NCBI GenBank assembly: GCA_903871905.1
Contig: CAIQIV010000761.1
Span: 1-35,183, forward strand
Source of the DNA: an uncultured Chloroflexota bacterium
GTDB taxonomy: Bacteria > Chloroflexota > Anaerolineae > Anaerolineales > UBA4823
Length of the DNA stretch: 35,183 nucleotides
Reading direction: 5' to 3'
The position numbers were made by a program, and so were the translations under genes. The notes below the pieces were generated by a model that searched no databases, was not told the origin of the DNA, and worked only from the letters and a program-made list of their open reading frames with translations. How positions within the stretch are numbered: the stretch's first letter is position 1; each line of letters opens with the position of its first letter. This document shows, in pieces, positions 8,474 to 23,923 of this stretch.

Positions 8474-9793
8474 TCAGGCTGTTGAGGATGGAGATTGACG
8501 TTTTTTGGCCTCTTTCTCTTCATACATGCTGCGGTCGGCCAGTTTGAGGGTTTCAGACAGCGGAACGCCAGCCAGGCTGGTTGCCACCCCAATGGAGAGG
8601 CTGATGGTGGGAAAGGGATTCTGGCTGTTATAGCGGTCAACATTACTGCGCAGCCGGTTGAGGGCCACCGCCGCTTGTTGGTTGTCCGTTGCAGGTAAAA
8701 TGATGATGAACTCATCTCCGCCTATGCGCGATACGGTATCCTGGGAGCGGAAACTCTGGTGTAAGATGTCCCCGGTCGCCTGGATCAGGTGGTCTCCTGC
8801 CTCGTGTCCCCAGGTGTCATTGACCCTTTTGAGATCATCCAGGTCTATCGCAATCACCGAGACTGGCTTTACCTGCAGGCTTTCGATGCGCTGCAGAGTA
8901 TCTTCAAAATAAGTCCGGTTGTATAAACCAGTCAAAGCATCATGGGTACTTAAATGTAGCAGCTTTTGCTCTGTCTCAACCTGTATCTGCACCTCTTTTT
9001 GGAGCCGATTGGTGGCGAAGGCGATGCCTAATAACCCGGCCAGCGCGATCAGGCTGTGCCCGACCAGCAGCGACTGGTTGAAACCCTCGTTTGCTCCCTG
9101 CAGTGGTTTGAGGGGGACGGTTTCGCTGATTCCCCCCCGCACCTGGCCGATCTGGTAGCCCTGCTTGGCGTGGCATTTCAGACAGCCTTCCTCCACGAAC
9201 AATGGGCGCATGAAGCGCAGGGCTGGCTGTCCGTCCATCATTTCAATGGAACTGACCTCCTCTACGCCCTGCTCAAAGGCTTGCAGGGCCCGGGTCTCCC
9301 ATGCATCCGCCTTGTTCTGAGGTCGGATGGGGTTCAGACTGGTGATGTGCCCCCAGACCCCCATGTTCTCCTGTTGCAGCTCGAACACCTGGCGGGTCAT
9401 GTAAGCCGGGTTGATCAGGGTATACAAACGCTCATTGCTGGCGGTCAGATCACGGTTGGGGTTGTCAGCCAGGTAAGGATTGGGCTGTGTTTTATCGGTA
9501 ACCGGGACATAAACGCCGCCGTGCCCGGAATTCCATCTCCGGTAAAGCACATCTTTTTGGAATGAGGCCAGCGCCAGCAGGCGGGCATGTTCCTTGATTG
9601 CCTCAGACTGCTGGTACAGGTTCCAGGCAAGCGAGGTGCTGACCCCAATTATCCAGGCCAGGGCAATGGCAAGCATATAGCGGCGCAGTGCTTTCAGGCG
9701 GCGATGTGTGTTAAACCCTGACGTCATTGCCGGAAGAGCCGACTCTTTGCTCGTGGGATTGCTACCCAGGCCTGGCATTTCAGGTGGGCTCAC
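8474..9793 (-). CDS. Membrane diguanylate cyclase with periplasmic c-type haem sensor (DUF3365/Tll0287-like) domain
   Basis: N-terminal TM, 'CLKCHAKQGYQIGQVRGGIS' (CxxCH haem c motif), second TM, then GGDEF domain 'RSQDTVSRIGGDEF' (RxxD I-site five residues before GGDEF). Confidence 0.9.
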   Translation of the reverse strand: MSPPEMPGLGSNPTSKESALPAMTSGFNTHRRLKALRRYMLAIALAWIIGVSTSLAWNLYQQSEAIKEHARLLALASFQKDVLYRRWNSGHGGVYVPVTDKTQPNPYLADNPNRDLTASNERLYTLINPAYMTRQVFELQQENMGVWGHITSLNPIRPQNKADAWETRALQAFEQGVEEVSSIEMMDGQPALRFMRPLFVEEGCLKCHAKQGYQIGQVRGGISETVPLKPLQGANEGFNQSLLVGHSLIALAGLLGIAFATNRLQKEVQIQVETEQKLLHLSTHDALTGLYNRTYFEDTLQRIESLQVKPVSVIAIDLDDLKRVNDTWGHEAGDHLIQATGDILHQSFRSQDTVSRIGGDEFIIILPATDNQQAAVALNRLRSNVDRYNSQNPFPTISLSIGVATSLAGVPLSETLKLADRSMYEEKEAKKRQSPSSTA

Positions 9794-12700
9794 TGCTTGG
9801 CGTAATTGTAAAAGTATAATCCCCCGTTGAGCAGTGGACTGGGAAATGGGCCCCTCACCCAGCGCTGTTCAAAATGTCTGCCGGTTGGTATGGGCAACAG
9901 CGTCAGCAGCACTTCTTGGGAAACCTGCAGATTCATCTCCGTATAAATCTTCTCTCGCTCCTCTGGCTGCTGGGTATGGACGCCCAGGTTGATCAGGTCT
10001 CGCAGCGACTGTGTCGCTGAATTGGGTAAGCTGAACCATTGGCTGTACTGCCCGCTGAAATATCCAGCTGCCCAATAATGGGGATCATGCACCTGTTCCA
10101 CCAGGCCAAACATCGCCAGCGGCACCCGCTTCTCTTCAAGCAGGCGGGAGTACTCTGCAAAATCCACCTCGATCAATTCCAGGCGGAATTTTTCGTTGAC
10201 CCGCGCCAAACCGTCGGCCAGCAGCTGCAGCATTGGCTGGCGCAGGCTGCCGCCAGTGTTATAGGGTACCTGCAGGCGAAAGCCTACATCCCAAAGCGGC
10301 TGGCCGTCAGGCGCCTGCCATTGGGAGTTTCTGAATGCATCAGCACAGGCCTGCAGGTTGAAATCATATCCTGGCGCATCTGGGTTGAAGCCCGGCATTT
10401 CCGGGAGCGGGAAACCATTGCTTTCCAGGGTATGGCCCTGGTAAGCCAGGTTGGTCAGTGCTCTCCGGTCCAAGCAGAAACTGAATGCCTTACGGATTTC
10501 CGGGTCCTTGAAGAAATCTGGGGGCGCACCCTCGCCATCTAACTGGCCGCTGCCCAGGAGGTCATTGCCATTTTCTGCGTTGATCTCATAGTTGAAGAAC
10601 AAATCATAGCGGTGACCAATTATAAAGCCAGTGATCATCCGCAGCGGCTCATTCGTGGCGGCAGTGGGCACGCAGTTCCCTGGTTCAAAGTGCAGCGGGT
10701 CCAGCATGCATTGTTCGCCTACCTTGTCAAGCAGGGTGGAGGTGTCTTCCCCGCGTGCGGGGTCACTGATCGCGTCCACCATGCCATCCATGAGCAGTTT
10801 GTAGCGTTCGCTGGACCGGGCAACCAGGCGGATGACCACCTGTTCCAATCTGGCTGGACCGGTCGGCGCGCCAGGCCAGGCTGGCTCTTTGCGCCAGTAG
10901 TCGGGAAAGCGCTGCAGCACAATCTCCTGCCCCGGCGTCCAGTGGTCCAGGAGAAACGGTCCACTGCCGTTGGCCACCTGGTGCAGCGGGGTCTCTCTTG
11001 ACCCGACTCCGTAATAGTTCTGCCAGGTTTCGCATTTCCCATCCCATGTGCCCTGTTCCTCAGCCCATTGGCGCTCAAGCACTGAACCCCACGGTCCAGC
11101 CAGGGTTACCAGGAAAGGCGCCCAGGGCCGGGACAAGTGAAGGTTGAGCGTCCAGGCGTCATCATTCGCCTGGATGGCTTCCATTACCACCTGGCATACC
11201 TTAAACAATAAGGCCGGATCGGCCCGTTTCAATCCTTCCGGGTTGTTTACCAGGTCTGGATCCACCATGGCTGCAATGTCAAAGATTCCATCACCAAGCA
11301 GCGGCTCTGTAAGCAGCGATTGTTGGGAACCACTGCCTCCCTGGAGTATTCCACGCTGCAGGGCGTAAGCTGCATCCGATGGTTTCAGCTCAGCACCGCT
11401 GTGGAAATGCACCCCTCGCCGGAGGTAAAAGGTATAGTTCAGCCCATCCGGCGAGATTTCCCAGCGTTCTGCCAACTGGGGAAGGACTTCACCGGGGTGG
11501 GAGGCGTTATAGAAGACCAGGGTTTCATAGACATTCTGGATAACCTGTGGGCCGTAAGTTCCGTTATCCAGCGCTGGATCCAGGTTAGCCGGCTCACCGC
11601 TGGCGGCCAGAAAAAAGGTAGCCGGTTCGCGGGCTGCCGGTCCTGGTTGGAGCCCCGGGGGGGTGATCTCTGGTGGGTTGGCAGGCAGGATGGGGGTTGG
11701 CGCATCGGTCGATGGCACAGGGGAAGGATGAGTGGTCCGGGTGGGAGACAACATCCCGGAAACTGCCGTAGGGGTGACCGGTCCGCCAAGGACCAGCGGT
11801 TGGCGCATTGATGGAGGAAAAATACCGGCAGCATACAGCATTCCCAATCCAACCCCCAGCAGAACCAGGAAGGCTGCAATCCATGCCCAGGGAGGAAACC
11901 GGCGAGAGGCCGTTGGGGGGGAGATCTGCCCCGCCCTTTCCGCCACGGGAGAGACGCCTGGCACCGGTAGGGTGTCGCTGGACCGGCCTGGCGTTTCCTT
12001 GGAGACCACGGGCTGGGTGGCTTCAAATGATGAAGAGGGGGCGGAGTCCGGCTCTGCCCTGGATGGCCGCACTGGGGAAATTGGCCTGGGAGGGGATCCT
12101 GCCTCTGGCGCCAGGGCAATTAGTGGAGCGACCTGCGCCTGCCTGCTTGGCAGGACCGTCGGATTTGTCATGTCCTGGGCCGCGCTGCCGGTTCCAGTTT
12201 CCAGTGCCTGGACCAGCAGCGCTTTGAATTCGACTGCATTAGAGATTCGCTGCCGGCGGTTCAGGCGCATTGCCCGGTCAACAGCCTGGGCTAAGGTCTC
12301 GGGTACCCGGGGGTTAACCTGGTCCAGCAACAGCGGCGGCTCGGCAATTCCAGACATCACATCTACGCTGGCAGGCGGGGTGCTGCCGCTCAGCAGGCTG
12401 TAAAGAGTAGCTCCCAGGGAGTACACATCACTGGCAGCATCGGTGACGCCCAATCCATACTGCTCGGGGGGAGAATACCCCGGGGTGACAGCCTGCGCGC
12501 CGGTGGTGGTGCGTGTGTTGGGGTCATACACTTTGGCGATGCCGAAATCAACCAGTACAGCCTTATCTTCCGGTGTGATTTTTATATTGGCTGGTTTGAT
12601 GTCTCGATGGATCACCGGGGGTTTTTGTTGATGCAGGTATGATAGGGCATCGCAGATCTGAGCGATCCAGGTGACAGCCAGGTCCACGGCCAGCGGGCCG

Positions 12701-13011
12701 TTTTGTTCACTTAACAGCTGTTCCAGGTCTTTTCCCTCGATATAATCCATCACCAGGTACTGGCCTTGCCCGGGCAGGGCAAAGTAATCTTTCACCAACG
12801 GCAGGTTCGGATGGCGCAGGGTGTGCAGCATCTGGGCTTCGCGCATAAACTGGCGCTGGGCTTCAGGGGTGGATTCTGTATTTTCTTTGACCGCGCAGGG
12901 CAGGCTGAAGCTGGTATCCCAGGCGCGGTAAACTGCTCCAAAGCCTCCCTGTCCTAGCAGGCGCACAATGCGGTAGCGATTATTCAGGACCTGGCCCTGG
13001 CTTAGAGGCAT
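9790..13011 (-). CDS. Transmembrane Ser/Thr protein kinase fused to an extracellular solute-binding protein family 5 domain
   Basis: Kinase motifs 'LGQGGFGAVYRAWD', 'CAVKEN', 'VIHRDIKPANI', 'VDFGIAK'. Then a Pro-rich linker, TM 'WAWIAAFLVLLGVGLGMLYAAGIF', and SBP_bac_5-like 'EPANLDPALDNGTYGPQVIQNVYETLVFYN...LAERWEISPDGLNYTFYLRRGVHFHSGAELKPSDAAYALQR'. Confidence 0.9.
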   Translation of the reverse strand: MPLSQGQVLNNRYRIVRLLGQGGFGAVYRAWDTSFSLPCAVKENTESTPEAQRQFMREAQMLHTLRHPNLPLVKDYFALPGQGQYLVMDYIEGKDLEQLLSEQNGPLAVDLAVTWIAQICDALSYLHQQKPPVIHRDIKPANIKITPEDKAVLVDFGIAKVYDPNTRTTTGAQAVTPGYSPPEQYGLGVTDAASDVYSLGATLYSLLSGSTPPASVDVMSGIAEPPLLLDQVNPRVPETLAQAVDRAMRLNRRQRISNAVEFKALLVQALETGTGSAAQDMTNPTVLPSRQAQVAPLIALAPEAGSPPRPISPVRPSRAEPDSAPSSSFEATQPVVSKETPGRSSDTLPVPGVSPVAERAGQISPPTASRRFPPWAWIAAFLVLLGVGLGMLYAAGIFPPSMRQPLVLGGPVTPTAVSGMLSPTRTTHPSPVPSTDAPTPILPANPPEITPPGLQPGPAAREPATFFLAASGEPANLDPALDNGTYGPQVIQNVYETLVFYNASHPGEVLPQLAERWEISPDGLNYTFYLRRGVHFHSGAELKPSDAAYALQRGILQGGSGSQQSLLTEPLLGDGIFDIAAMVDPDLVNNPEGLKRADPALLFKVCQVVMEAIQANDDAWTLNLHLSRPWAPFLVTLAGPWGSVLERQWAEEQGTWDGKCETWQNYYGVGSRETPLHQVANGSGPFLLDHWTPGQEIVLQRFPDYWRKEPAWPGAPTGPARLEQVVIRLVARSSERYKLLMDGMVDAISDPARGEDTSTLLDKVGEQCMLDPLHFEPGNCVPTAATNEPLRMITGFIIGHRYDLFFNYEINAENGNDLLGSGQLDGEGAPPDFFKDPEIRKAFSFCLDRRALTNLAYQGHTLESNGFPLPEMPGFNPDAPGYDFNLQACADAFRNSQWQAPDGQPLWDVGFRLQVPYNTGGSLRQPMLQLLADGLARVNEKFRLELIEVDFAEYSRLLEEKRVPLAMFGLVEQVHDPHYWAAGYFSGQYSQWFSLPNSATQSLRDLINLGVHTQQPEEREKIYTEMNLQVSQEVLLTLLPIPTGRHFEQRWVRGPFPSPLLNGGLYFYNYAKQ

Positions 13012-15332: not shown

Positions 15333-15422
15333 GGTTGTTACAGGATAGATGACTGCGGTGGCTGGCTGTCCATTTGCTCGAGTGCCATCAGCAAGCGAAC
15401 CATGACCAGGAGAGAAACAATA

Positions 15423-16256
15423 GTGAAGGTATTCATTTCTGTAGATATTGAGGGGATTGCCGGGGTTGTTCATTGGGATGAAACCCGTGGAGAAGGTGAA
15501 GAATTTCAGCGAGCCCGGCGTTGGATGACCGGCGAAGCCAATGCTGCGGTCCGGGGGGCTTTCGCTGGGGGAGCGGATGAGGTGGTGGTGAATGACTCCC
15601 ACGGCCAGCAGCGCAACTTGTTGGCTGAAGAATTAGATCCGCGCGCCAGGTTAGTACGTGGCAGGCTGAAACCAATGATGATGATGGAGGGGATCACCCC
15701 GGGGACAGACGCCATTTTTCTTGTTGGTTATCACGCCCGGGCTGGGACCGGTCAAGCTATTCTCAACCATACATTTAGCGGCAAGTCGATTTATCAATTG
15801 AGCTTGAATGGTCGGGTGGTAGGGGAGGTTGGTTACAACGCAGCCCTGGCTGGCTCTTTGGGCAGCCCGGTTGCCCTCGTGTCTGGGGATGATGTCCTGA
15901 GCCGTGAGGTGGACCTGCTGCTTCCCTGGGCCGAACGGGTGGTGGTTAAGCGAGGGGTGAGCTCGTGGGCGGCAGAAAACCTCTCCCCCCAGATCTCATG
16001 TGAGCGGATTTACCAGGGGGCAGCGCGTGCGCTGGCCGGGCTAAGCGAAATGCAGCTTTACCAGCTTCCAGGGCCGATCAATATGGAAATCACTTTTCAG
16101 CGTCCGATCCTGGCTGACCTGGCTGCGTGGGTCCCGACTGCACGGCGTGTCGATGGGACAACAGTCGCATTTGCCGCGGAGAATATGATGGAGATCAACC
16201 GCGCCTGGGTGACAGTGATCAACCTGGTTTCAAGCCAGACAGATGGGTATGGATAA
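15423..16256 (+). CDS. dppA: M55 family D-aminopeptidase (DppA-like)
   Basis: 'MKVFISVDIEGIAGVVHWDE', 'VVVNDSHGQQRNLL', 'FLVGYHARAG', 'VVGEVGYNAALAG' are M55 motifs. GTG 15423 is preceded by AGGAGAG; the ORF track starts at 15402. Confidence 0.85.
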   Translation: MKVFISVDIEGIAGVVHWDETRGEGEEFQRARRWMTGEANAAVRGAFAGGADEVVVNDSHGQQRNLLAEELDPRARLVRGRLKPMMMMEGITPGTDAIFLVGYHARAGTGQAILNHTFSGKSIYQLSLNGRVVGEVGYNAALAGSLGSPVALVSGDDVLSREVDLLLPWAERVVVKRGVSSWAAENLSPQISCERIYQGAARALAGLSEMQLYQLPGPINMEITFQRPILADLAAWVPTARRVDGTTVAFAAENMMEINRAWVTVINLVSSQTDGYG

Positions 16257-16340: not shown

Positions 16341-16369
16341 TTGCCAATCTGTTTAGAGACTGTTATACT
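16341..16369 (+). promoter_or_regulatory. Sigma70-like promoter for the radical-SAM operon
   Basis: TTGCCA - 17 nt - TATACT, about 40 nt upstream of ATG 16410. Confidence 0.75.
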
Positions 16370-16409: not shown

Positions 16410-18479
16410 ATGGCAGAATATTCTCAACGGATTAGCACCTTGCTTCCACGCTTGCCCCTGGAAGGGAATATAGACCTGACGTATCGCTGCAACAATACCT
16501 GCCAACATTGCTGGTTGTGGCTGTCGCCGCGAGCTCACCAGCAGGCGGACGAGCTGACCTTTAGCGAAATCTGCCAGATTGCCGATGAAGCACGAGCCAT
16601 GGGAACCCGCCGCTGGAATATTTCTGGCGGCGAGCCGATGCTGCGCCCGGATTTTCCCGAAATTTTTGATTATCTCACTGCAAAGTCAAGTGGATACAGC
16701 TTGAATACCAACGGTACGCTGATCACCCCGGAGATCGCCCGCCTGATGACCCGTAAAGGCAGCAAGATGGTGGCGCTGTACGGGGCGACCCCTGAGGTCT
16801 ATGATACTGTAACCCGCAACCCAGGGGGATTTGAACTTTTAATGCAGGGAATTGAAATGCTCAAACAGGCTGGCGCCGGGTTCATCATGCAGCTGATCCC
16901 GATGCGTCAGAACTGGCACGAGTGGGATGCGATGATCAGGCTGGCAAGGTCCCTTACCTCTCATTACCGGTTGGGCGCTCCCTGGCTTTACCTGTCTGCG
17001 AATGGTGACCCACGGCGCAGAGCAGAGATTGCTGACCAACGCCTGCCGCCCCGTGAAGCGCTGTTATTAGACCCGCCACAACTTCCGGATGACCTGCCGC
17101 CGCAGCTCGGGAGTGCCCTGGCGATGGGTGAGACAGCGCTGATGCCATCCTGCGGCATCCCGGAGGCCAGTGACGACCGCCTGTTTGCCCGCTGCATCGC
17201 CGGGCGGAAAGAGTTTCATATTGATCCCTACGGGGGAATGACTTTCTGCACTTTCATTAAACATCCAGATCTACGGTATGATCTGCGCCGCGGCAGCTTT
17301 CGCCAGGCCTGGGAAGAGTTTATCCCTTCCCTGGCGGATATGGTGCGTGGCGGGGATGAGTTCCGCCAGAACTGTGGTTCGTGTGACCGCCGCGAAGATT
17401 GTCGCTGGTGCGCAGTTTACAGCTACCTGGAAACCGGGCGCTTTACTGCCCCAGTACCCTACCTGTGTGCTGTGGCTGAGGAGACGCGAAAGTATAAAGA
17501 AGAATGGCCTGTACTCCATCGCCGCTACTTTCGCATTGCGGGCATCACTGTGCGTGTCGAAAGCGACCTGGATTTCTTCGAATTTCCGTTCAAACCTGAG
17601 TTCTCAGCCTTTGCAGTGGAAGGCCCAGGGGAGGATATGGTTACCCTGCGCCATCATTTTTACCTGCCTGAACTGCAGGAGAAGGACCTGGGGGAAGAGG
17701 TATATCATCGGGTGCCCTGGTCCATCTGGCGCAAGAACGGCTCCTGGTTTTACCTGGGTATTTCAGATGGGGTACAGGCTGGTTTGCACCGGGTAGCCCA
17801 GTTTAGCGCCGATTATTCCCGCGGGGTAATCTTCAGCCCGCCGCGCGATATCGAGCTGTTGCAAAGGACAGGCTGGAACTCAATTTCAATGTTCCCCACG
17901 GACCAGATCTGGCTGGCGCCGCTGCTGGCGGACCGACAGGCGGTGCTCATCCATTCCGCCGGCCTGGTGGTCAATGGCGCCGGGTTGGCCTTCATCGGTC
18001 ACTCCAGCGCCGGTAAGTCGACCACGGTCACCTTGCTTAAGGATGCAGCCGGGATAGGTGAGGCGCCTCCCCAGGTTGAGATCCTGTGTGATGATCGCAA
18101 TATCCTGCGCCGGTGGGAGGACGGCTGGCGCATCCACGGCACGTGGAGCCACGGCACGGTGAGCGATGTATCCAATGGCGCAGCGCCGTTGTGTGCCATC
18201 TTGTTCATCGAGCAGTCCCCATGTAACGAGATCCTCCCCATTGTGGACCGCAAGGAAATCTGGAAGCGCCTGCTGGCGACTTTGATCCGCCCTATGGCGA
18301 CGCCTGAGTGGTGGCAAAAGGAGCTGGATATCTTGCAGAAAGTGGTGGATGAAGTTCCATGTTATTTGATGCGTTTTGATAAAAGTGGGGCAATTGTCAA
18401 AGAGCTGCTGCGCCTGGTGAAAGATGTGCGGGGGCTGCAGGACATCGAGAGCTCGACTGCGGAATTGGGCGTGGGGTGA
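16410..18479 (+). CDS. Radical SAM/SPASM enzyme fused to an HPr kinase-like domain
   Basis: 'LTYRCNNTCQHCW' (CxxxCxxC), 'NISGGEPMLRPDF', SPASM-type Cys 'CGSCDRREDCRWCAVYSYLETG'. C-terminal Walker A 'FIGHSSAGKSTTVTLLKDA' in a HprK-like context. ATG 16410 with AGGAGA RBS; the ORF track start at 16332 lies upstream of the predicted promoter. Confidence 0.88.
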   Translation: MAEYSQRISTLLPRLPLEGNIDLTYRCNNTCQHCWLWLSPRAHQQADELTFSEICQIADEARAMGTRRWNISGGEPMLRPDFPEIFDYLTAKSSGYSLNTNGTLITPEIARLMTRKGSKMVALYGATPEVYDTVTRNPGGFELLMQGIEMLKQAGAGFIMQLIPMRQNWHEWDAMIRLARSLTSHYRLGAPWLYLSANGDPRRRAEIADQRLPPREALLLDPPQLPDDLPPQLGSALAMGETALMPSCGIPEASDDRLFARCIAGRKEFHIDPYGGMTFCTFIKHPDLRYDLRRGSFRQAWEEFIPSLADMVRGGDEFRQNCGSCDRREDCRWCAVYSYLETGRFTAPVPYLCAVAEETRKYKEEWPVLHRRYFRIAGITVRVESDLDFFEFPFKPEFSAFAVEGPGEDMVTLRHHFYLPELQEKDLGEEVYHRVPWSIWRKNGSWFYLGISDGVQAGLHRVAQFSADYSRGVIFSPPRDIELLQRTGWNSISMFPTDQIWLAPLLADRQAVLIHSAGLVVNGAGLAFIGHSSAGKSTTVTLLKDAAGIGEAPPQVEILCDDRNILRRWEDGWRIHGTWSHGTVSDVSNGAAPLCAILFIEQSPCNEILPIVDRKEIWKRLLATLIRPMATPEWWQKELDILQKVVDEVPCYLMRFDKSGAIVKELLRLVKDVRGLQDIESSTAELGVG

Positions 18480-18482
18480 TAT

Positions 18483-19727
18483 ATGGAAGGAGCTTATTCC
18501 CGTCGAGTCCAGCCTCACCAGTTCAGGGTTTACAAACCGGGCGGCCTGCACATGGGCAGCCTGGATATTGAGCTGACTGAGCGTTGTAACAACGACTGCA
18601 TCCACTGCTGCATCAACCTGCCGGCTGGCGACCGGCAGGCTCGGGCGCGAGAGATGACCACCGACCAGGTGAGGCGCATCCTGCGCCAGGCCGCAGATCT
18701 TGGCGTTATTCGGGTGCGCTTTACCGGCGGCGAGCCGCTGCTGCGCCCGGATTTTGAAGAGCTGTATCTGTTCACCCGCCGCCTGGGGATCAAGGTCCTG
18801 TTATTCACCAACGCCCGCCTGCTGACCCCGCTTCTGGTAGAGATGTTTGCTAACATTCCTCTCCGCGCGCCGATTGAGATCACGGTCTACGGCCTGCGTC
18901 CTGCATCATATGACGCAGTCAGCCGCGTTCCAGGCTCTTTTGCCCAGTTTCGTAGGGGGGTAGAATTGTTGAGTGAGCGGAATATTCCCTATGTTCTCAA
19001 GAGCGTGGTGCTGCCTCCCAACCAGGAAGAGTTGGAAGAGTTTGAGGCCTGGGCGGGGTCTATCCCCTGGCAGGGTGACCGCCGGCCTTCTTTGGCAATG
19101 TTTTATGATCTGCGCAACCGCCGCGATGACCTTGAAAAGAACCGCCAGATAGAGCGTTTCAGGCTGTCGCCTGAGTCGGGGCTGCGCATCCTGATCAGGG
19201 ATGAGGAGCGGTTTCGGAAAGAACGGGCTGAGTTTGCAGCCAGATTCATGGGTCCAGCCGGCGATCACCTGTTGAACTGCGGTATCGGACAAGGGATGAC
19301 GGTCGATGCTTATGGCCGGGCGCAGCCCTGTCTTGGCATACGCGCTCCTGAGCTGACCCTGGACCTTTTTCCGCCCACAGCCGGCCTTGATGGCATTGGT
19401 CTGGGCACTGCTCTGGAACATTTTCGCAGCCTCGCCGGGTTGACCACCACCAATCCTGAGTACCTGCGCCGCTGTGCCCGATGTTTTCTTAAAGGCCTGT
19501 GTGAGCAGTGCCCGGCTAAATCCTGGGCAGAATATGGCACTCTCGATACCCCGGTAGAGTATTTATGCCAGGTGGCGCACGCTCAGGCAGTTCACCTTGG
19601 GTGGCTGCAGGAGGGGGAGCATGCCTGGGAGGTGGAGGACTGGCAGTCCAGGTTAAACGGACCCGGGGGGAATGGAGAGCAGCAGGCAGCCGGGCGCGCC
19701 CGGGCGAACAGGATGGAATTGAATTAA
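18483..19727 (+). CDS. Radical SAM/SPASM domain protein
   Basis: 'LTERCNNDCIHCCINLPAGD', 'RFTGGEPLLRPDF', 'CARCFLKGLCEQCPAKSWAEYG...YLC'. Starts 3 nt after the previous stop. Confidence 0.9.
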   Translation: MEGAYSRRVQPHQFRVYKPGGLHMGSLDIELTERCNNDCIHCCINLPAGDRQARAREMTTDQVRRILRQAADLGVIRVRFTGGEPLLRPDFEELYLFTRRLGIKVLLFTNARLLTPLLVEMFANIPLRAPIEITVYGLRPASYDAVSRVPGSFAQFRRGVELLSERNIPYVLKSVVLPPNQEELEEFEAWAGSIPWQGDRRPSLAMFYDLRNRRDDLEKNRQIERFRLSPESGLRILIRDEERFRKERAEFAARFMGPAGDHLLNCGIGQGMTVDAYGRAQPCLGIRAPELTLDLFPPTAGLDGIGLGTALEHFRSLAGLTTTNPEYLRRCARCFLKGLCEQCPAKSWAEYGTLDTPVEYLCQVAHAQAVHLGWLQEGEHAWEVEDWQSRLNGPGGNGEQQAAGRARANRMELN

Positions 19728-19752
19728 ACAGGGTTTGATCAGGAGTAAATGC

Positions 19753-20055
19753 ATGGATTTGGTCACGATGGATAGTGTGTGCTTTCCCTCCAAAGATGTG
19801 GTTGCGCGGATGATTGAAGGAGAAATAGTGATTGTCCCGATCGCCTCCGGGATTGGAGATGCAGAGGATGAGCTGTATTCGCTTTCTCCGACGGGACAGT
19901 CGATTTGGGAAAAACTGGATGGGGAAAAGACCCTGGGCCAGGTCGCCCAGGCGTTGGTGCAGGAGTACGAGGCCCCACTCCAGGAAATAGAAGATGATGT
20001 GCTGGGGTTTGCCAGCGAGCTGGTTCGCCGCCGCATCCTGGAGCTGAAAAACTGA
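19753..20055 (+). CDS. PqqD-like RiPP recognition/peptide chaperone protein
   Basis: 100 aa, 'EDELYSLSPTGQSIWEKLDGEKTLGQVAQALVQEYEAPLQEIEDDVLGFASELVRRRILEL' is PqqD-like. ATG 19753 with upstream AGGAG. Confidence 0.85.
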   Translation: MDLVTMDSVCFPSKDVVARMIEGEIVIVPIASGIGDAEDELYSLSPTGQSIWEKLDGEKTLGQVAQALVQEYEAPLQEIEDDVLGFASELVRRRILELKN

Positions 20056-20074
20056 GGGGTTACTCCTCAGGTGG

Positions 20075-21091
20075 ATGATGGATGAAGCCCCTTTTACCCG
20101 CCAGGGTGAGCCTCTGCGCCTGACAAACCATGCTCAACTGGAACTGATGTGTGGGGTGATCGAGCGAGGCGCAACCTTCCGCTTCAGCGCGCGTGGTTAC
20201 AGCATGCTGCCCTTTATCCACGATGGGGATGTGCTCACCATTTCTCCCCTTGATCCTCCCCTGCAGGTTGGCGCCGTGGTGGCTTTTATCCGTCCGGGTT
20301 GGGAAGTGCTGGCGGTGCACCGGGTGGTGGCGCAGAAGGGAAGTGAGTACCTGATCAAAGGGGATAACTGCATCCAGCCGGATGGGGTTATCCCGGCGGC
20401 GCAGCTCATAGGTCAGGTGGTTCGGGTGGAACGCCGGGGACGCCGGGTCGGTGGGGGGCTGGGCGCATCGGGGGCGTGGATTGCCCGTCTGTCACAGCGC
20501 GGTTTCTTCATCCGCCTGCGCTCATTTCTTGACCTGCCGCGCCGGGCAGCAGCGGCTGTGTTGTGGCGTCTGCAGAAGCTGGGGCTGTACCGCCGCTGGG
20601 CGCGCCATCGAGGTTTGCAGGTGGTTATCGATGAAGCCCGGGACGACGAGCTGGATTTGCTGGCCCAGCGATTGAACCCGGGGATCTGGCTGCCTCCCAT
20701 GCGCCGGGTCCCGGAGGTTAATACATACGTGGCGCGCCTGGGAGGCGAGGTGGCTGGCATGGTGGAACTGGTGCGCCGGCCTCCTGAGTTTGGTCCGCAT
20801 GCTGGCCACTGGCTCTACAGTCTGCATGTCTGGCCCCGTTATCGCGGCTTCGGGCTGGGCGAGTTACTCAGCTGCCGTGTGATCCGCCAGGCAGCGGCAG
20901 AGGGGGCGGCTGAGCTGCGCTTGCTGGTCAAGTCGAACAATACTCCGGCGATTCAACTATATCGTAAGCTGGGTTTTGAGGTTGTGGATGGCAGCGAGCT
21001 GGCAGAAGTACTTGAAAAAGATAGGCTGCTGCTGATGCGCCTTCATCTGCAGCCTGGAGATGCAATTTTTACCGGTAATCAACAAGGATGA
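20075..21091 (+). CDS. S24/S26 (S26B-like) peptidase fused to a GNAT acetyltransferase
   Basis: 'FSARGYSMLPFIHDGDVLTI' (catalytic Ser region), 'VLAVHRVVAQKGSEYLIKGDNCIQPDG' (HR...GDN as in S26B). C-terminal GNAT 'LHVWPRYRGFGLGELLSCRVIRQA...NTPAIQLYRKLGFEVV'. Confidence 0.85.
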   Translation: MMDEAPFTRQGEPLRLTNHAQLELMCGVIERGATFRFSARGYSMLPFIHDGDVLTISPLDPPLQVGAVVAFIRPGWEVLAVHRVVAQKGSEYLIKGDNCIQPDGVIPAAQLIGQVVRVERRGRRVGGGLGASGAWIARLSQRGFFIRLRSFLDLPRRAAAAVLWRLQKLGLYRRWARHRGLQVVIDEARDDELDLLAQRLNPGIWLPPMRRVPEVNTYVARLGGEVAGMVELVRRPPEFGPHAGHWLYSLHVWPRYRGFGLGELLSCRVIRQAAAEGAAELRLLVKSNNTPAIQLYRKLGFEVVDGSELAEVLEKDRLLLMRLHLQPGDAIFTGNQQG

Positions 21092-21145
21092 CGGATAGGA
21101 TGCCAGGGCATGTGGATGGCCGGGTACCAGAAAGCAGGTGAGAGG

Positions 21146-22264
21146 ATGACCCATACAAGCACAGGCGAGATCCAGGATTTTCATTTGTGGGATAAGCTGA
21201 TCAGCAAACGCACACCGTTCTCCTTCGATCTGGAGGTAACCGCCCGCTGCAACAACGACTGCCGTCACTGCTATATTAACCTGCCGGCGGGTGATATGGA
21301 GGCGCGCGGGCGTGAGCTGAGCCTGGGTGAGATAACAGACATCGCCTCGCAGGCAGTAAAAATGGGTACGGTGTGGTGCTTGCTGACCGGTGGTGAGCCG
21401 CTGTTACGCCCCGACTTTGCCCAGATTTACATGGCTCTCAAGCGCCTGGGCCTGCTGGTTTCGGTTTTTACTAATGCCACGGCAATCCAGGATGAGCACA
21501 TCCAGTTGTGGAAGAGGTATCCACCGCGGGACATCGAGGTCACTGTCTATGGCGTCACCCAGGAAACATACGAGCGTGTCACCCGCCGGGCTGGTTCATA
21601 TGAAAATTTCCGGCGTGGATTAGACCGCCTGTTTGCTGCGGGGATCCGGGTGCGGTTGAAGGCGATGGCCATCCGCTCCAACCTGGAAGAACAGCCTGCA
21701 ATAGCCAGGTTCTGCCGCCAGTACACCAAGGATTTCTTTCGTTTCGACCCGCAGCTCCATCTGCGGTATGACGGCAACGCTGAGCGGAATGATGAAATCC
21801 GCCAGGAGCGTCTGTCACCCGCACAGATCGTTGCCCTGGAGCAGTCGGATGAACAGCGGATGCAGGTGATCGCCGAGCACTGCAGGGAATTGGTTAACCA
21901 GGAGCTCAACCACTATGGCTGCAATCACTTGTTTCACTGCGGGGCGGGCAAAGGCAGTTTTTCGGTAAGCTATGACGGCCAGTTCCGTCTGTGCTCCGCT
22001 CTATGGGGGCCCGGGACCACTGCTGATCTGCGCCGCGTACCCCTGGCGGAGGTCTGGAACAACCTGGTGCCTCAGGTAAGGGATTGGCGCTCCTCCCGCC
22101 AGGAGTACCTGGATACCTGCCGGAAGTGCGCCCTGGCTAACCTGTGCCTGTGGTGCCCGGCACATGCATACCTGGAAAGTGGCGAGCTGGATGGCGAAAC
22201 GCCGTATTTCTGCGCCGTTGCCCATGCCCGCGCTGCGGTTATCCAACAGAACTTGCCCGGGTAA
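21146..22264 (+). CDS. Radical SAM/SPASM domain protein
   Basis: 'VTARCNNDCRHCYINLPAGDMEARG', 'LLTGGEPLLRPDF', 'CRKCALANLCLWCPAHAYLESG...YFC'. Alternative ATG at 21110. Confidence 0.9.
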   Translation: MTHTSTGEIQDFHLWDKLISKRTPFSFDLEVTARCNNDCRHCYINLPAGDMEARGRELSLGEITDIASQAVKMGTVWCLLTGGEPLLRPDFAQIYMALKRLGLLVSVFTNATAIQDEHIQLWKRYPPRDIEVTVYGVTQETYERVTRRAGSYENFRRGLDRLFAAGIRVRLKAMAIRSNLEEQPAIARFCRQYTKDFFRFDPQLHLRYDGNAERNDEIRQERLSPAQIVALEQSDEQRMQVIAEHCRELVNQELNHYGCNHLFHCGAGKGSFSVSYDGQFRLCSALWGPGTTADLRRVPLAEVWNNLVPQVRDWRSSRQEYLDTCRKCALANLCLWCPAHAYLESGELDGETPYFCAVAHARAAVIQQNLPG

Positions 22265-22288: not shown

Positions 22289-22318
22289 TTGACATAACTC
22301 GTACCTCCCCTGTATACT
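22289..22318 (+). promoter_or_regulatory. Sigma70-like promoter
   Basis: TTGACA - 18 nt - TATACT, upstream of the GNAT-ADP-ribosylglycohydrolase gene. Confidence 0.8.
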
Positions 22319-22411
22319 ATAGCCAACCTGCCCAATCCCGTGCCGCAGAGATTTTCTGCGGCTGAGTGGTTTAAGCTGATCGACAATTTTGAAATCCATC
22401 CATGCACAGGT

Positions 22412-23923
22412 ATGATTGAGGTGACATTGGACGAAAAGACAGACACTGGGCAGGCGCTTGAATGGCCTACGAATTATCCCGCTGATTGGATAGAAGATAT
22501 TACCCTCAAGGATGGGCTGCAGGTGCACCTGCGTCCAATCCTGCCGTCGGACGCGCCGCGTTTGCAGGAGGGATTCAAATACCTTTCACCGCGCTCGATC
22601 TATATGCGCTTCTTCGAGACTTACAAGAGCCTGCCGGATGAGATGGCTCAAAGCTTCAGCAATCTGGATTACCAGGAGCGCATGGCCTTCATCGGCGAAA
22701 TTGATATCGACGGGCAGAGGCGCATCATTGGGGTTGCACGGTTTGGTATGCTTGGCCCGGAAAGGCCGGGCATGGCGGAGAGTGCAGTGGTCGTTGCTGA
22801 TGACTTTCAGCGCCGGGGGCTGGGATCAATGTTGGTCCAGAGGTTGGTGAATTACGCCTGTTTGCACGGAGTGCAGTCCATGCTGGCAACGGTTCACATA
22901 TCAAACCTGGCGATCCTCAATTTCATCCGCAGTAGCGGGTTTCTCTTTTCACGTAAGATGTTAGAGCCAGGCGTTTTTGAGATTACCATTCATCTGCCTT
23001 CTCGAGAGAGTTTCCAGGGCAGCCTGCTAGGCCTGGCGGTGGGGGATGCGTTAGGCGCACCGGTTGAATTCATGGCGCCGGGATCTTTTCCCCCTGTCCA
23101 AGGGATGCTGGGGGGGGGAACATGGGGCCTGAAACCAGGCCAGTGGACGGATGACACCTCCCTGGCTCTCTGCCTGGCTGCAAGCCTGGTGGAGAGCGGG
23201 GGGTTTGACCCGGCTGACCAGATGCAGCGCTATACCCGCTGGTGGAAGCAGGGGTACATGAGCAGCACAGGTTTTTGTTTTGATATCGGCAATACCACAC
23301 GCGCCGCCCTCGAGCAGTTTGCCCGCAGTGGCGAACCCTACAGCGGCCCGACCGATCCCTCGCTGGCAGGCAACGGATCGCTGATGCGCCTGGCGCCAGT
23401 GCCCATGTTCTACGCTCGCCGGGCGGATCTGGTCCTGCGCATGTGCGCTGACAGTTCGCGCACCACCCATGGCGCACGCCAATCGGTGGATGCCTGCCGT
23501 TACTTCGGCGGCCTGCTGTTGGCTGCGTTCTATGGTGTTGAAAAAGATGTGCTGCTCTCTCCCCGCTATTCGCCAGTACTCAATGCCTGGGAGGAAGAAC
23601 CGCTGCATGAAATGGTAGACACGGTTGCTGCTGGCTCGTTCAAGCTGCGCCAACCGCCGGCGATTCGCGGGGCCGGGTACGTGGTGGATTGCCTGGAGGC
23701 AGCCTTGTGGGCATTTTACAACTCGGATGACTTCCGCAGCGGAGTCCTGCTGGCGGTTAACCTGGGCGATGACGCGGATACCACCGCGGCCGTGTACGGC
23801 CAGCTCGCCGGTGCGTATTACGGCGTGAAGGGTATTCCGGAAGAATGGCTGGAGCAGTTGTACCAACGCCCGCTGCTCGATGACTATGCTGGACGGCTGT
23901 TTTCACAGGTCTGCACCCGCTGA
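22412..23923 (+). CDS. GNAT acetyltransferase-ADP-ribosylglycohydrolase (DraG/ARH) fusion protein
   Basis: GNAT part 'LKDGLQVHLRPILPSDAPRLQEGFKYLSPRSIYMRFF...DDFQRRGLGSMLVQRLVNYA'. DraG part 'GLAVGDALGAPVEF', 'WTDDTSLALCLA', 'GNGSLMRLAPVPMF', 'AVNLGDDADTTAAVYGQLAGAYYG'. Alternative GTG start at 22340. Confidence 0.9.
   Translation: MIEVTLDEKTDTGQALEWPTNYPADWIEDITLKDGLQVHLRPILPSDAPRLQEGFKYLSPRSIYMRFFETYKSLPDEMAQSFSNLDYQERMAFIGEIDIDGQRRIIGVARFGMLGPERPGMAESAVVVADDFQRRGLGSMLVQRLVNYACLHGVQSMLATVHISNLAILNFIRSSGFLFSRKMLEPGVFEITIHLPSRESFQGSLLGLAVGDALGAPVEFMAPGSFPPVQGMLGGGTWGLKPGQWTDDTSLALCLAASLVESGGFDPADQMQRYTRWWKQGYMSSTGFCFDIGNTTRAALEQFARSGEPYSGPTDPSLAGNGSLMRLAPVPMFYARRADLVLRMCADSSRTTHGARQSVDACRYFGGLLLAAFYGVEKDVLLSPRYSPVLNAWEEEPLHEMVDTVAAGSFKLRQPPAIRGAGYVVDCLEAALWAFYNSDDFRSGVLLAVNLGDDADTTAAVYGQLAGAYYGVKGIPEEWLEQLYQRPLLDDYAGRLFSQVCTR

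Follow-up and report, generated by a model that had tools for sequence, protein, structure and literature searches.

The window analysed here, a 35,183-nucleotide stretch of DNA from an uncultured Chloroflexota bacterium, carries five adjacent open reading frames on the + strand between positions 16410 and 22264 (Table 1). The gaps that separate them measure 3, 25, 19 and 18-54 nucleotides, in order, the range in the last case reflecting two possible starts of the fifth gene (21146, or an alternative ATG at 21110). Our ORF calls agree with the compact same-strand operon of the original prediction. The same gene order recurs in other phyla, so the arrangement is not a matter of chance.

Table 1. 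Features of the operon and of the gap upstream of it (positions in the window)
Feature	Position	Strand	Evidence
Promoter-like site TTGCCA-17-TATACT, second hexamer preceded by TG	16341..16369	+	Consensus scan, 10/12 matches
P0001, 689 aa, fusion of a radical SAM/SPASM enzyme with an HprK-like kinase domain	16410..18479	+	Radical_SAM E 1.6e-20; orthologs in several phyla
P0001 radical SAM domain, CNNTCQHC, C27/C31/C34	16476..16943	+	Pfam residues 23-178; three Cys in 18/18 orthologs
P0001 SPASM region, C262, C280, C322, C325, C331, C334, C353	17193..17468	+	Seven Cys in 18/18 orthologs
P0001 predicted HprK-like kinase domain, H515, Walker A GHSSAGKS (K536), CDD (D561)	17517..18425	+	Residues, fold match, weak ScmC/HprK_rel_B matches
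P0002, 414 aa, radical SAM/SPASM enzyme	18483..19727	+	Radical_SAM E 3.1e-22; 3 + 7 Cys kept in orthologs
P0003, 100 aa, PqqD-like RiPP recognition element	19753..20055	+	PqqD E 1.4e-15; orthologs in same position
P0004, 338 aa, fusion of an archaeal-type signal-peptidase-like protease with GNAT	20075..21091	+	sigpep_I_arch E 5.6e-10, GNAT E 2e-14
P0005, 372 aa, radical SAM/SPASM enzyme	21146..22264	+	Radical_SAM E 3.5e-24, SPASM E 2.4e-6; Cys conserved in 10 orthologs

The five genes had been placed behind one clear promoter. A promoter-like site does lie in the gap upstream of the operon, but sites of this kind often arise by chance (5 found against 2.6 expected), and consensus promoter scans of the operon and of the precursor gene described below gave nothing significant. 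Among the flanking genes, an M55 D-aminopeptidase is encoded immediately upstream (15402-16256, +), and a GNAT domain fused to an ADP-ribosylglycohydrolase is encoded at 22340-23923 (+), with a promoter-like site, TTGACA-18-TATACT, at 22289-22318. A long protein encoded on the - strand (9790-13011) looks by eye like a Ser/Thr protein kinase combined with an extracellular solute-binding domain. As had been predicted, neither the operon nor the adjoining sequence contains a precursor ORF; scanning the whole window for the motif in six frames, and searching it with profiles, likewise yielded none.

The first gene had been read as a fusion of a radical SAM (rSAM) enzyme with an HprK-like domain, and our results support this reading. 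The rSAM half is readily recognised, and its cysteines are conserved, although among the rSAM genes of the operon only gene 5 has a SPASM match over the Pfam cut-off. The HprK-like domain has no Pfam match, its NCBIfam matches (ScmC and HprK_rel_B) are weak, and a PDB sequence search with this domain returned weak P-loop matches only. Stand-alone homologs of the kinase half, found in related clusters, match HprK models better. The catalytic residues H515, K536 and D561 are kept in all 18 P0001 orthologs, and a low-confidence AF2 model of this half (pLDDT 65) retrieved PEPCK and HprK/P in a Foldseek search, with E-values of about 6e-6 to 1e-3. On the evidence of this HprK/PEPCK fold and of its catalytic residues, the second half of gene 1 is assigned to the HprK-like kinase superfamily.

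For genes 2 to 5, Pfam and NCBIfam domain matches agree with the predicted succession of rSAM enzyme, PqqD protein, peptidase-GNAT fusion and rSAM enzyme. In P0004, Pfam identifies a Peptidase_S24 domain (E 2e-6) and a GNAT domain (E 2e-14), while archaeal signal peptidase I is the best NCBIfam model; residues S43, H82, D97 and D103 are invariant in 4 orthologs, and GNAT folds are found among its structural matches. The GNAT half looks separable from the protease half: the protease part alone matches in one related genome (G011), and the halves match at different places in another (G405).

Scanning genome contigs yielded six relatives of P0001 with 60-63% identity, in MAGs labelled Chloroflexi, Aminicenantes, Acidobacteria and Anaeromyxobacter, several of which may bear a wrong taxon label. 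The gene order is the same wherever the contig is long enough (L009, L012, L014 and G011). A further member of the cassette occurs in G405, a genome from the window genome's own family, and P0001 is present in 12 of 297 genomes of the phylum of G402 (a MAG labelled Acidobacteria); in one of these 12 (G595) the match is confined to the kinase half, which forms an ORF of its own. The cassette constantly includes the three rSAM genes. The original prediction was open to attack on two sides, namely that its genes might not be conserved together or that HMMs might place them in a characterised pathway; in fact, they stay together across phyla and no such placement was obtained above cut-off.

Some copies of the cassette have additional genes. 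The absence of a transporter, also part of the original prediction, holds for the operon of the window, with none in it or beside it, but not for the copy at L014, directly downstream of which we found an ABC exporter, a PF14907 nucleotidyltransferase and two further precursors (L014:7839-10843 and 10929-11399). In two Chloroflexi MAGs, sulfotransferase genes are inserted in the cassette (L009:5097-5672 and L010:4232-4822), possibly providing an extra tailoring step.

Small ORFs lie beside or between the cassette genes at six of these loci and genomes (L009, L010, L011, L014, G011 and G405). They encode unannotated peptides of about 60 residues with a leader of the form WxKPELxVLxRxxPEEAVLxxCK and a variable core with 2-4 Cys; in L009, L010, L011, L014 and G011 the leader reads WxKPELxVLVRxxPEEAVLxxCK. 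With a relative's precursor peptide as query, the window's own genome (G000) gave a single strong match, at G000:C599:2541-2726: MDKLKKTCWEKPQLLVIVRSQPEEAVLITCKCDGWGDAQSTNFGCYQDAQSCTVCSTYGLS. This gene has a GGAG ribosome-binding site and is solitary, located between sialidase-like and aminopeptidase-like genes (so named from a look at their sequences). The tetranucleotide profile of C599 correlates with that of the window at r = 0.917, to be compared with 0.938 between the two halves of the window and 0.27-0.80 for relatives' contigs. The bin of the window genome is fragmented and 8% contaminated, and it holds eight other PqqD matches (see below); precursor and operon are paired in it by family and are unlinked on contigs. 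A substrate encoded elsewhere, to be sought among small co-occurring ORFs of the genome, is what had been proposed, and this is what we found: a precursor in trans on C599 and in cis in relatives.

We collected 34 precursors of the three-rSAM cassette, some with start codons picked by eye. All 34 contain the WxxP motif, and every core contains Cys (2-4), with aromatic residues rare. Of these precursors, 32 end in Ser and the other 2 in Thr, each of these amino acids making up about 8% of the core; after similar cores were removed, 27 of 28 still ended in Ser. A relative's genome can hold several precursors, and their cores are hypervariable. No Pfam or NCBIfam model matched the precursor over its cut-off, and no conserved cleavage site was identified among the sequences. 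Four weak profile matches (L036, L055, L057 and L101) were judged to be chance matches and rejected. The family has the traits expected of a RiPP substrate: its short precursors are genetically encoded, combine a conserved leader with a variable core, and go with the enzymes.

The distribution of the two components is closely matched. Among 399 Chloroflexota genomes, a full-length P0001 and a strong precursor match (E < 1e-20) occur in the same two; the precursor was found in each of the eight cassette genomes first tested, and also in G405. In the second phylum (297 genomes), all 12 genomes with P0001 are among the 14 with a precursor (E < 1e-9). As to the two precursor genomes that lack P0001, one (G729) has genes 2, 3 and 5 around the precursor at a contig end, and the other (G635) has the kinase domain. 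The Fisher test for this phylum, before these cassette parts are counted, gives p = 1.2e-19, a value whose true strength is less because the genomes are related.

Weaker matches of the precursor search revealed a sister system comprising PqqD, one rSAM, a precursor, a stand-alone HprK-like protein and a signal-peptidase-like protein. Its 18 precursors carry YxxP in 18 of 18 cases and exactly two core Cys, and they end with Ser (13) or Thr (5). The C-terminal Ser/Thr is thus present in 52 of 52 precursors of both systems, and the cores contain no other constant Ser. A PEEAVLGxCK-like leader motif is seen in the sister clusters at L050, L054, L056, L059, L060, L062, L092-L100 and L102-L104, for which Pfam and NCBIfam annotation returned nothing, as far as tested. 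Genes for the PqqD and signal-peptidase-like proteins are present where the stretch reaches far enough. One genome, G011, carries both a WxxP cassette and YxxP precursors; at least five of the latter are near-identical (L050, L054, L056, L059 and L060), with a core ending in CNSTCPTIGT or CNNTCPTLGT, and are scattered over contigs. The W or Y of the leader perhaps keeps the two branches apart, in which case the strict split between sister precursor groups would be a second natural case of RREs separating parallel pathways.

What do these enzymes do to the peptide? It is very probable that the operon is a RiPP maturation module with this precursor family as its substrate, the copy on C599 being the candidate in this genome. 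The PqqD-like protein would bind the WxxP leader and present the peptide, RRE binding through a [W/Y]xxP-type leader being established for lasso and LPP leaders (PMC13381572). The three rSAM/SPASM enzymes would then put radical-derived links on the Cys-containing core. Since Cys is the sole recurrent reactive residue of the core and aromatics are rare, thioethers would be the likeliest chemistry, a choice to which we commit only tentatively.

The signal-peptidase-like domain of P0004 would remove the leader. We regard this role as probable because LppS, an enzyme of the same type, does that job with an RRE partner; LppS needs S29, H68 and D93 (PMC13381572), and the Ser-His spacing of 39 residues is the same in both proteins (S43/H82 in P0004 and S29/H68 in LppS). 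Acetylation of the product by the GNAT domain is conceivable and, given the apparent separability of that domain, would be a tailoring step.

The HprK-like domain, lastly, would phosphorylate the C-terminal Ser. In the lasso peptide paeninodin, the kinase modifies the last Ser of the precursor, before maturation (review PMC9266682), and the constant C-terminal hydroxyl of two systems that share an HprK-like kinase suggests that this residue is the one phosphorylated. By this analogy and from the conservation of the precursors, we think that the domain probably has the same activity here. The main alternative is a nucleotide-dependent scaffold, or a kinase whose target lies elsewhere in the core. 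This is less likely, yet a serious possibility, given the action of the LPP kinase on core Ser3 and the low confidence of the kinase model (pLDDT 65). It fits poorly with the invariance of His, Walker A Lys and Asp in 18 orthologs, and with a terminal Ser/Thr shared by every precursor of both systems in cores that have no other constant Ser.

Is this a known pathway? The nearest known systems (LPP, paeninodin-type lasso peptides and SynChlorMet) each fail a defining feature. Like the present operon, paeninodin-type lasso clusters (kinase PadeK/ThcoK, PMC9266682) combine a WxxP leader, an HprK-like kinase and a PqqD-like B1/RRE, and the conserved C-terminal Ser that goes with their kinase is found here too (32/34 Ser, 2/34 Thr). 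However, the operon has three rSAMs and a Cys-containing core instead, and neither a macrolactam synthetase (C) nor a B2 protease is among its domains, hence we rejected lasso membership. SynChlorMet has the same types of parts, with an HprK-like ScmC, a PqqD-like ScmD and two rSAM/SPASM proteins (ScmE and ScmF), but its ScmC lacks a fused rSAM half, whereas the cassette here has three rSAMs and a protease-GNAT protein. Membership was rejected on the scores of its models (ScmC 17.2 against 125, ScmD 27.4 against 100, ScmE 73.0 and ScmF 79.1 at best against 400), and no paper on SynChlorMet was found in the literature searched. Sactipeptide and ranthipeptide maturases (AlbA, SkfB, StsB, PapB) resemble the present enzymes as rSAM/SPASM proteins that act on Cys-containing cores, as we infer for this operon; no model of these maturases matched above cut-off. 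To our knowledge, a kinase and a signal-peptidase-type protease are not features of these classes.

The LPP system (Popov et al. 2026, PMC13381572) comes closest, with a discrete RRE, an archaeal signal-peptidase-like leader protease, an HprK-like kinase and an aromatic-xxP leader. The operon could then be an LPP family member, whose rSAM genes are local additions to an RRE, a leader protease and an HprK kinase acting on a linear peptide. The three core functions are indeed found together here, the [W/Y]xxP leaders are related, and, where LPP clusters contain an NTP transferase and an MsbA-like exporter, the copy at L014 has both a PF14907 NTP transferase and an ABC exporter, neither of which accompanies the window operon. 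We nevertheless rejected LPP membership, which we hold to be very unlikely: LPP leaders read YxxPxVLxHQxIxFETxxS and not WxKPELxVLxRxxPEEAVLxxCK, the LPP kinase is unfused and phosphorylates core Ser3, the family is described from Bacillota, and the term 'radical SAM' is absent from the LPP paper (PMC13381572), while three rSAMs are constant in our cassette.

Two further explanations compete with the RiPP reading. The original prediction left the choice between a RiPP-like and a protein-modification pathway, with an ordinary host protein as a potential substrate. Its first branch is supported by the precursor family, in trans or in cis, and its second is not. The operon of the window genome does have no internal precursor, as would be expected if the enzymes acted on one or several host proteins and the small ORFs were unrelated neighbours, but precursors that lie within the cassettes of six relatives or next to them, the tight co-occurrence, a leader of RRE-binding type and a variable core make this scarcely credible. 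Alternatively, the peptide might be the raw material of a redox cofactor, as for mycofactocin or PQQ. The rSAM models of these two pathways are among the best domain-level matches, PqqD is present, and the precursor is solitary in the window genome. All those matches are far below curated cut-offs, however, and several precursors per genome, hypervariable cores and the exporter of L014 fit better with secreted peptides, so we give the cofactor explanation very little credence.

An undescribed RiPP family is therefore the best reading of this operon and its precursors. We found no description of an rSAM-HprK-PqqD-signal-peptidase system in the literature searched, which was mostly open-access, so that an earlier description is possible. 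Going one step further, we lean slightly towards a new RiPP class in which rSAM modification would be coupled to phosphorylation of a C-terminal Ser, partly in a single rSAM-kinase protein, and the leader would be cut off by a signal-peptidase-like protease. This class would divide into two sister lines, one with WxxP precursors, three rSAMs and a kinase that is mostly fused, the other with YxxP precursors, a single rSAM and a kinase of its own. It would join radical-derived links with peptide phosphorylation, which no paper that we found describes together, contribute an enzyme in which rSAM and kinase are fused, and carry the range of signal-peptidase-type leader proteases far outside Bacillota. 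With its missing substrate found, the orphan enzyme operon becomes a directly testable pathway.

The window genome contains eight further PqqD matches on contigs C87, C704, C816, C626, C369, C674 and C539 (L001-L004 and L006-L008); C539 has two of the eight, with rSAM-like sequence nearby. Other RiPP systems are likely in this genome. In G405, two copies of the precursor (L112 and L114) look degraded or truncated, one by an in-frame stop and the other by a short core, as if copies decay.
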